A stretch of DNA of 44,539 nt, taken from Planctomycetota bacterium. GTDB taxonomy: Bacteria; Planctomycetota; MHYJ01; WSZJ01. Shown piece after piece: positions 39,239 to 43,907 of this stretch. A program made the translations under genes and the position numbers. The DNA is taken from contig WSZJ01000033.1 in the NCBI GenBank assembly GCA_009773755.1, forward strand, positions 1-44,539, written 5' to 3'. The notes below the pieces were generated by a model that ran no database searches, was not told the DNA's origin, and saw nothing but the letters and a program-made list of their open reading frames with translations. The first letter of the stretch is position 1. Each line of letters opens with the position of its first letter.

Positions 39239-39406
39239 GCTGGCGGAGGCTGGCGGAGGCTGGCGGAAGCTGGCGGAAGCTAAATGCCCTTCATCCGCGG
39301 ACGATCTTGATCGATGCGGTCGTTAGCCTCCGCAGCCTCCGCAGCCTCCGCAGCCTCCGCTCGCCTCCGCAGCCTCCGCAGCCTCCGCTCGCCTCCGCAG
39401 CCTCCG
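39239..39406. repeat. paired inverted tandem arrays (9-10-mer units) around a 44-bp spacer
   Basis: The left array (39239-39278) has four 10-bp units, GCTGGCGGAG twice then GCTGGCGGAA twice. The right array (39325-39406) has nine units, mostly AGCCTCCGC (9 bp) with two TCGCCTCCGC (10 bp). The words are the same as in the element at 22934 on the left and complementary on the right, and both elements have a GTTAGC beside the right array. It fills the gap between the OmpA-like gene and the metallophosphoesterase. Confidence 0.85.
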
Positions 39407-41700: not shown

Positions 41701-42060
41701 CTACTTCTGTCCGACTTTTTTGGTCGAAAGCTCCCGAGAGAGTCCCTCCCCGAGCCCTCTGACCGTTTCCATCTCCGCTTCCCGCTCCAGTTCGAGGAGC
41801 GGGCGTTCGCTGGACGACGCCGTGATGATGTGGCAATCAAGCCGCTTGTCGGCTTGGGTGACGGCGCGAACACGCGAAGAGAGGACGTCGATCAAGGTTC
41901 CCTCCGCGGCCGCGTAGACCTCTACTGTCCGGCCGGGCACCGCGAAGATCGGGATAATGAGCCAGTTCAGGTTGGACCAGCCGTTGAAATACGTATCGTT
42001 GCTCGACCCGCGGCCGAAAACGAACAGCGAATCCGCGCCAATGCGCGTGGGTTCACGGAA
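41701..42060 (-). pseudogene. orphan C-terminal fragment of a lipoprotein-like gene
   Basis: Reading on from just behind the stop of the cohesin-like gene, in the same frame, about 119 codons stay open to 41701. The peptide looks real: ADSLFVFGRG..., then NWLIIPIFAVPGRTVEVYAA, EGTLIDVLSSRVRAVTQADK and a charged helical end. The phrase pattern (A-D-S-L, P-G-R-T-V-E-V, L-I-D-V-x-S-x-R-V) recalls the C-terminal half of lipoproteins common in Planctomycetota, a comparison from memory. There is no credible start or signal peptide: the first possible start is a GTG at 41940, in the middle of a strand. It is best read as the remains of a gene that lost its 5' end. Confidence 0.55.
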
Positions 42061-42540
42061 TTATGGAACGCGGTCCCTCGACGCTTCCGCGCGACCCTTC
42101 ACCGGCCGCCCTTCCGAGTCAACCAGAGTCACCAGCCGCACGACGAGGCGGGAAGGGTCGCCGCCGAGGGACTCGAACGCGACGCGTGCGACGACGAAGC
42201 GTCCTCGCGTGTAGCGTTCGACTTTCAGGGAGGAGAGGATGAGCTCTCCTGAAGTAAACCCGCGGCGCGTGAAAAAAGGCGCGGGAAAATCGGCGGTCGG
42301 CTCCACGGCGACGACATGGACGAGCATCCGGTCGTAGACGAGCGTGAGCGTGTAGGCCCCGAGGTCCCGGTCGCCGGTGTCCACGCTGATTTCCACCGGT
42401 TCCGGCCGCGTCAGGCCCCGCTCTGAACCGGAAGAGCGTCCGGTCGACCGTGCCTCGCCTTCCGGCGACGAGTCTTCGCGGGGGCTCGAAGCGCACCCGG
42501 CGAGCACGGCCGCGAACGCGAGGATGGCGAACCGCTTCAC
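42061..42540 (-). CDS. cohesin-like lipoprotein coupled to the anti-sigma factor
   Basis: 159 residues from a GTG that overlaps the anti-sigma stop by 4 bases (GTGA), with AAGGAG in front. Lipobox LAGC (Cys16). After a Ser/Glu/Arg-rich linker (17-47), residues about 48-155 follow the cohesin pattern: VEISVDTGDRDLGAYTLTLV then YDRMLVHVVAVEP, F-T-S-G-E-L and a late RFVVARVAFESLGG strand with LVTLVDSEGRPV. Cohesins bind dockerins, and the neighbouring anti-sigma factor ends in a dockerin-like module. The pairing is therefore inferred, but the fold call rests on a short pattern. Being a lipoprotein, it would sit on the periplasmic side, where the anti-sigma tail also lies. Confidence 0.6.
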   Translation of the reverse strand: MKRFAILAFAAVLAGCASSPREDSSPEGEARSTGRSSGSERGLTRPEPVEISVDTGDRDLGAYTLTLVYDRMLVHVVAVEPTADFPAPFFTRRGFTSGELILSSLKVERYTRGRFVVARVAFESLGGDPSRLVVRLVTLVDSEGRPVKGRAEASRDRVP

Positions 42541-43304
42541 TTGAGCTTCTCCTTCTCCGCGATGCGCTTCGCCACGATCAGGGCATCGGCGACGTCCGTG
42601 AGGCCGTCTCCATTGATATCTCGCGACACGGGTTCTCCTTCGCGGATCACGGTTCGCATGATCTCCATGCAGTCGGCGACACTCAGGTCGCCGGGCACGC
42701 CGGCCGGCTGGGGAAGGTGCGGGGGAGGGCCCGGGTCGACGGGGGGTTTGGGAAGCGGCGGAAGGTCGCCGCCGGCGAGGTAGCCGCGGCCGCCCGGAGG
42801 AGGCGGCGGTTCGAGATCAGGGGGCGTTTTGACGCCCGGGCCTGGATCGAGTGGGGGAATCGGCGTCGGGTCAATGGGGGGCGTTGGCGCGGTTCCACCG
42901 GGGTCCTTGACAGTACCTGGATCAGGGGAAGGTCTCTCCGTTCCTCGTGCCGGTTGGTCGTCGGTGTTTCCTGCCACGGTGCCGGTGGAAGGCGCATCGC
43001 GGACCGCCGCATACTTGAGACCGCCGATGACGGCTGCGAGCAGCACGGCTGCCGCTGCCGCGACCTGCCACCATCCGGCCGGCCGCCGGCGAGCCGCATC
43101 GGCGGCGAGCTGAGGAATCGCCGCTCGAATGACCTGGTCGTTCGCTTCCGGCACGGGCCGCTCGTCGGCAAGGGCGCGAAGAGCCCGCGTCGCGAGGATG
43201 ACCGCCTGCTGCCGTTCGCGGCATTCCTCGCATTCGGAAAGGTGCGAAGACCCGGCCGCCGTGGGAGCGAGCATCTGGTCGTTCGTCAGTTCGTTACAGG
43301 TCAT
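42537..43304 (-). CDS. anti-sigma factor with ZAS zinc motif, one span and a dockerin-like C-terminus
   Basis: 255 residues, 45 bases behind the sigma gene on the same strand. The N-terminal zinc anti-sigma motif is present: Cys3, then His21-x3-Cys25-x2-Cys28. A membrane span lies at about 79-98. A long Pro-rich periplasmic linker follows (about 105-205). The last 50 residues read as a type I dockerin with two repeats: the first degenerate (LSVADCMEIMRTVI), the second with a complete calcium loop D229-x-N231-x-D233-G-x-x-D237-x-x-D240, then ALIVAKRIAE. So the cytoplasmic end should hold the ECF sigma factor, and the outer end can bind a cohesin. The cohesin-like lipoprotein gene follows with overlap. 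I know of no standard annotation for this architecture. Confidence 0.75.
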   Translation of the reverse strand: MTCNELTNDQMLAPTAAGSSHLSECEECRERQQAVILATRALRALADERPVPEANDQVIRAAIPQLAADAARRRPAGWWQVAAAAAVLLAAVIGGLKYAAVRDAPSTGTVAGNTDDQPARGTERPSPDPGTVKDPGGTAPTPPIDPTPIPPLDPGPGVKTPPDLEPPPPPGGRGYLAGGDLPPLPKPPVDPGPPPHLPQPAGVPGDLSVADCMEIMRTVIREGEPVSRDINGDGLTDVADALIVAKRIAEKEKLK

Positions 43305-43349
43305 CCGTTGTGATCAACCTCTCTGGTACAGCGATCGCGACTCACTCAT

Positions 43350-43907
43350 TCAGCGTTCGCCAGCCTCTTCTGTTCGCAATTTTCTCTGAAAAAGCCCCTT
43401 CAAGAGCTCCAATCCGTTGTGAATCCTCGACTTCACCGTCCCCACCGGAATGTCGAGCATCTCCCCGATCTCCTCGTACGGCAAGTCCTCGAAAAACCGG
43501 AGCGCCAGGGCTTCACGATACACCTCCGGCATTTCCGCCAGCGCTTCACGCACCTTCACGGCGAGCTCCGTCCCGGAGGCCTGCGATTCCGGGCCTTCTC
43601 CAGGGTCCGCCGCCGACTCCTCCGTGATCGGCGCCGCAGAGCGTTTTTTTCTCCGGCGCAACTCCGTCACCGACAGGCTGGACACCACTTTGTAGAGAAG
43701 CGTCGTGAATTTCGCGCGCGGCTCCCACTCCGGCGCCTTGCGGAATATGTACAGAAACGCCTCCTGCGCCACGTCCCCCGCCGCATCGGCGTCCCCCAGC
43801 ATCCCCGTCGCGTGCCGCATCGCGCGATCCCGATGCCGCTCGTACAACTCCCGGAACGCCGCCTCGTCGCCGCGCCGGCAGCACGCCATCAGCTCTTCGT
43901 CCGTCAT
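43350..43907 (-). CDS. ECF RNA polymerase sigma factor
   Basis: 185 residues. Region 2 is clear (ELYERHRDRAMRHATGML then DVAQEAFLYIFRKA, with the DxAQEAF motif binding the -10), a linker follows at about 85-115, and region 4 ends the protein (MPEVYREALALRFFEDLPYE, then IGEMLDIPVGTVKSRIHNGL). It directs RNA polymerase to stress or envelope genes and is held inactive by the anti-sigma factor encoded next. It starts in an ATGA overlap with the end of the TPR gene at 43904. The acidic and Ser-rich insert after RRKKRSAAP is longer than in the typical RpoE group. Confidence 0.93.
   Translation of the reverse strand: MTDEELMACCRRGDEAAFRELYERHRDRAMRHATGMLGDADAAGDVAQEAFLYIFRKAPEWEPRAKFTTLLYKVVSSLSVTELRRRKKRSAAPITEESAADPGEGPESQASGTELAVKVREALAEMPEVYREALALRFFEDLPYEEIGEMLDIPVGTVKSRIHNGLELLKGLFQRKLRTEEAGER

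Follow-up and report, generated by a model that had tools for sequence, protein, structure and literature searches.

The three genes between positions 42,061 and 43,907 of the window, that is, the whole 44,539-nucleotide stretch of planctomycetal DNA analysed here, appear to encode a module in which an ECF sigma factor and its anti-sigma factor have a cohesin-dockerin pair as their outer contact. Cohesin-dockerin pairs are known for clamping together the parts of cellulosomes and similar complexes, and, judging from the sequences, a clamp of these cellulose-digesting assemblies seems to have been taken over for signalling, the binding itself being predicted. We consider it probable that the pair forms the extracytoplasmic interface of a sigma/anti-sigma/partner module resembling RseA-RseB, in which loss or change of the hold would free the sigma factor. 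Such a module would supply this class of sigma systems with an outer partner, and hence with a testable input, and its pairs of two defined proteins lend themselves to studies of binding and structure.

The three genes and their products

The genes for the ECF sigma factor, the anti-sigma factor and the lipoprotein lie on the minus strand in that order, and the gene set given in a preliminary description of this DNA was recovered with all parts at their coordinates. The sigma factor (43350..43907, 185 amino acids) has Pfam matches to Sigma70_r4_2 (1.6e-17) and Sigma70_r2 (2.1e-11) and an NCBIfam sigma70-ECF match above the cut-off. The end portion of a TPR protein gene (44539-43904, minus strand) lies upstream of it. 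The lipoprotein gene (42061..42540, 159 amino acids, lipobox LAGC at residues 13-16) starts with a GTG within the stop of the anti-sigma gene (GTGA), confirming the 4-base overlap described before, and the same overlap is present in genus mates. Beyond the lipoprotein gene lies a gene for a cNMP-binding/Ser-Thr kinase (41663-40287, minus strand). An open frame directly after the lipoprotein stop (41701-42060, minus strand) resembles the C-terminal part of a 263-residue lipoprotein (E 1.9e-25), which is intact in a genus mate (L003:616-1404:-), and from its sequence looks like a 5'-truncated remnant of such a gene. A short tandem repeat with the unit AGCCTCCGC in about 9 copies occupies positions 39325-39406.

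The anti-sigma factor (42537..43304, minus strand, 255 amino acids) has a ZAS-type N-terminal domain, one membrane span, a Pro-rich arm and a dockerin-like C-terminus. The zinc-binding HxxxCxxC motif, HLSECEEC at residues 21-28 (43221..43244, H21-x3-C25-x2-C28), is nearly invariant among the relatives of the ZAS group. The single hydrophobic stretch at residues about 79-98 (43011..43070, hydropathy maximum 1.99 at residue 79) has basic residues on its N-terminal side, in agreement with the earlier reading of one span with the ZAS motif inside the cell. The arm (residues about 99-205, 42690..43010) contains 31% Pro by automatic segmentation and is the least or nearly the least conserved part of the protein within the genus. 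The match of the protein to the NCBIfam anti-sigma model was weak (2.3e-7, below the cut-off); its relatives match Pfam zf-HC2 and Dockerin_1. The motif in the N-terminal domain, the adjoining ECF sigma gene and the membrane span are those by which class I zinc-binding anti-sigma factors are recognized, and the domain is a putative binder and inhibitor of the sigma factor.

The dockerin-like module (residues about 206-255, 42540..42689) ends in DINGDGLTDVADALIVAKRIAEKEKLK and was delimited by alignment with two-loop relatives and by a match to Pfam Dockerin_1 of 14.2 bits, below the cut-off of 22.9. The second calcium loop, DINGDGLTDVAD (residues 229-240, 42585..42620, by pattern match), is canonical; the first is deleted and its helix, VADCMEIMRTVI, is kept. 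The module is thus dockerin-derived with one canonical loop, as had been claimed, but it is an incomplete dockerin, having one loop where type I dockerins have two calcium-binding loop-helix repeats. All five species of the genus examined have this one-loop form. Since calcium site 1 is gone, a simple calcium-switch reading is weakened in the genus of the window, and calcium switching as the main mechanism is disfavoured, as about 13 of 61 pairs, those of this genus included, have one loop by pattern. The contact between the anti-sigma dockerin and the lipoprotein cohesin may be calcium dependent.

Residues 47-159 of the lipoprotein (42064..42402, minus strand) are predicted to have the cohesin fold. 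An AlphaFold2 model built with 23 aligned sequences reached a pLDDT of 95.3 and a pTM of 0.87, and among the PDB structure matches listed for it 50 of 50 were cohesins (best E 2.7e-5). Pfam Cohesin found no match in the window lipoprotein and matched 5 of 17 family members (best 1.4e-5). A phmmer search of the lipoprotein against PDB sequences gave no match, and a profile search of PDB sequences gave weak matches to the NagJ cohesin only (E about 0.4). The cohesin-like character proposed earlier is supported by the model and by the Pfam matches of relatives to a family that Pfam does not see in the window protein, and a non-cohesin fold, named beforehand as refuting the idea, was not what the prediction gave. 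Taken alone, the window proteins give a weak reading because Pfam is below its cut-off for the dockerin and blank for the lipoprotein; dismissing the two domains from Pfam and NCBIfam alone would be wrong. The lipoprotein is the sole cohesin-like protein found in its genome, which is 88% complete, so that another may be missed. One contig of this genome (L160, G000:C78) encodes four large proteins whose dockerins are of another sequence type, and three of these proteins have in common a C-terminal tail that ends near DPTPD.

Pairing of cohesin and dockerin genes in relatives

Homologues of the lipoprotein were found by sequence search in 20 of 199 relatives, and with a profile of its domain 39 of 392 Planctomycetota genomes gave a match. 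When a named collection was scanned, further matches came from Fuerstiella, Phycisphaerae, Planctomycetaceae and Verrucomicrobia, together with single matches in records labelled Acidobacteria and Fermentibacteria. After removal of duplicates, 67 distinct strong loci were obtained, and in 61 of them a gene with the dockerin pattern lies directly upstream on the same strand. When we count L074, where reading the translation revealed the upstream dockerin, and L066, where the dockerin is in the same chain as the cohesin, the pairing holds in 63 of the 67 loci; no dockerin was seen beside the cohesin in L103, L123 and L129. A C-terminal dockerin pattern occurred in just 6 of 696 other open frames of the same loci, indicating that the recurrence of the gene pair is not due to chance. 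Many families of Planctomycetota have kept this gene order, and it is conserved in Verrucomicrobiota as well, so that the search for the same order in other genomes, suggested in the preliminary description, found it to be recurrent, and the refuting case of two genes that never co-occur did not arise.

The anti-sigma side gave a similar picture. Profile A7 of the anti-sigma factors had 23 matches of 37 bits or more, every one of them beside a cohesin or fused to one; the profile was built from cohesin-paired anti-sigma factors, which makes this test not fully independent, but homologues without a cohesin should still have surfaced. Four weaker matches without a cohesin (L153, L155, L156 and L158) were rejected on inspection as dockerin proteins of the ordinary secreted kind or an unrelated anti-sigma factor. 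Pfam Dockerin_1 matches 15 of 16 anti-sigma factors of the sister clade described below (best 1.9e-10) and 9 of 13 in the ZAS group (best E 5.9e-12). Two calcium loops are present by pattern in 48 of 61 relatives; where loop 1 is lost, helix 1 is usually retained (sister-clade consensus DILDAFALAR), and selection may therefore act on the face of the helix more than on calcium site 1. Distances between the cohesins and between the dockerins correlate beyond those between the sigma factors (partial r 0.51, 38 pairs, 0 of 2000 permutations), a signal to which shared operon history may contribute in part. The relatives thus strongly support the pairing of the anti-sigma dockerin with the co-encoded cohesin; binding between the two as a cognate pair is probable, with indirect support from the pairing, from natural fusions and from the correlated distances. 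Just upstream of position 5007 in L081 lies a short dockerin that is anchored in the membrane, in which no anti-sigma domain is visible, and it adjoins a cohesin lipoprotein.

A possible switch and its alternatives

In the order of events that we propose, the N-terminal domain of the anti-sigma factor would hold the ECF sigma factor inside the cell, and the protein would cross the membrane once to present its dockerin on the arm. The co-encoded cohesin, which is a lipoprotein in the clade of the window and is secreted in the sister clade, would bind this dockerin and, by analogy with the action of RseB on RseA, would most likely shield or hold the anti-sigma factor against cleavage. When the hold is lost or altered, the anti-sigma factor would be cut by a site-1 protease and then by a site-2 protease of the RseP type, and the sigma factor would be freed. 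An RseP homologue is encoded in the genome of the window. A switch of sigma activity through the cohesin-dockerin hold, as first suggested, is plausible.

Its main rival is a tether without release. The lipoprotein, perhaps on the far side of the periplasm, would then be a permanent anchor for the anti-sigma factor, and force, spacing or a further partner, such as the protein with VIT and vWA domains encoded next in the sister clade, would be the signal acting on this assembly. We regard this as unlikely, and the coevolution of cohesin and dockerin is compatible with a switch and with a tether alike. Natural fusions speak for a tether, as they make the link to the cohesin covalent. The anti-sigma domain, span, dockerin and cohesin form one chain in L066 (genome G023), a span and half a dockerin run into the cohesin in L083, and in L092, where a VIT-vWA gene follows, the dockerin is missing and the anti-sigma domain and span lead straight into a cohesin domain that matches weakly. 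As such fusions exist, release cannot be required in every species. In a model of the extracytoplasmic part of the L066 fusion (pLDDT 88.8, pTM 0.81) the dockerin is helical and the cohesin is formed as well; the high pTM suggests that the two domains hold a defined relative placement and no more, the modelling giving no inter-domain error. In the fusion alignment, rows with a dockerin only were left out because MAFFT had misplaced them onto the cohesin, and three rows of alignment A2, which served as alignment rows only, were made by translating through the stop codon between two neighbouring genes in the same frame.

The tree of the cohesin domain, which has few columns and several long branches and on which the lipid state was assigned by eye, splits the lipoprotein members, including that of the window, from a group of 50 that are mostly secreted. 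The arms of the anti-sigma factors paired with lipoprotein members tend to be long (about 100-200 residues in nine pairs) and those paired with secreted members are mostly short, as a tether might lead one to expect. The long arms are Pro-rich in the genus of the window and have a high content of helix-forming, coiled-coil-like residues in L054, L057, L060 and L067. On the other hand, there are short-armed and long-armed exceptions (L081, L082 and L107), and the link between arm length and lipid state counts as one event because the lipid state changes once on the tree. Automatic calling of the lipobox proved unreliable, with errors both ways, and we therefore gave no weight to the p values for arm length. 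A geometry in which a long arm and a lipoprotein cohesin bridge the periplasm is, from these sequences, only a lead. In the secreted clade a VIT-vWA gene usually comes next after the cohesin gene, often with a 4-base overlap (for example L112:4842-6953 and L071:5329-7911); its position directly downstream in most loci of this clade agrees with a tether, and its product may be part of the sensing end. Genome G009 contains one member of each clade (L083 and L086), which are paralogous there.

It is improbable that the dockerin is decaying in the genus of the window, with binding lost and a working pair left in the relatives only. The loss of the first loop throughout the genus and the fall of module identity between genus members to 41-44% in two of three comparisons would fit such decay, but loop 2 persists together with the helices and the 4-base overlap, the module is conserved at least as well as the adjoining arm (70, 41 and 44% against 49, 40 and 37%), and loss of loop 1 with helix 1 kept is also seen elsewhere in the family (L085, L112 and L127). 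Still less probable is a competition in which the anti-sigma dockerin and secreted dockerin proteins vie for the lipoprotein cohesin so that the supply of dockerin proteins is read, since the five further places with Pfam dockerins in large proteins of the genome (four on one contig), which would provide such competitors, differ in sequence type, and the fusions, the strict adjacency and the coevolution of the genes favour a cognate pair.

Returning to the cohesin-dockerin hold as a switch, a wider claim is possible, and we put it at a little under even: cohesin-dockerin binding may be a signal-transduction interface in a widespread class of ECF sigma factors of Planctomycetota and Verrucomicrobiota, with the co-encoded cohesin controlling the anti-sigma factor through its dockerin, and in the long-armed clade the arm could span the periplasm as far as a lipoprotein of the outer membrane.

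Comparison with known systems

In the openly accessible portion of the literature we found no prior description of a dockerin-ended anti-sigma factor with a co-encoded cohesin, and an earlier mention may exist. The nearest reports there on dockerins, anti-sigma factors, ECF sigma factors and Planctomycetes concerned only the Clostridial RsgI systems and the proposed planctosome. A cellulosome was ruled out, as Pfam Cohesin had no match in the 88% complete genome and the lipoprotein has a single domain. The planctosome of freshwater Planctomycetes, proposed as a complex in which large secreted proteins anchor peptidases, likewise places cohesins and dockerins outside cellulose digestion in the same phylum; in contrast to the present module, the accessible part of its description includes no sigma or anti-sigma factor (PMC6461901). 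Class I (ASDI) membrane anti-sigma factors share the HxxxCxxC motif, the helical N-terminal domain, the single span and the adjacent ECF sigma gene, whereas a C-terminal dockerin and a co-encoded cohesin go unmentioned for them in the accessible text (PMC7406223).

The Clostridial SigI-RsgI systems, with which the preliminary description had drawn a comparison, also have a membrane anti-sigma factor whose outer module contacts something outside the cell (PMC3413522). That likeness stands, but the comparison is loose. RsgI serves SigI and not an ECF sigma factor, and its modules in the literature examined are CBM, PA14, GH or peptidase domains and not a dockerin with a co-encoded cohesin. Identity with RsgI was ruled out, the window anti-sigma factor being of the ZAS type with an ECF sigma partner and having no match to an RsgI-type domain in Pfam or NCBIfam.

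The nearer working analogy is RseA-RseB. RseB binds the outer part of RseA and inhibits its cleavage by DegS (PMC4598750). The lipoprotein has no Pfam match indicating homology to RseB/MucB, which leaves the likeness in working unaffected. The present module differs from rpoE-rseA-rseB in that its partner has a predicted cohesin fold and its anti-sigma factor ends in a dockerin, and agrees with it in the order of roles, namely ECF sigma factor, one-span anti-sigma factor and extracytoplasmic partner, and in the presence of an RseP-type protease in the same genome.
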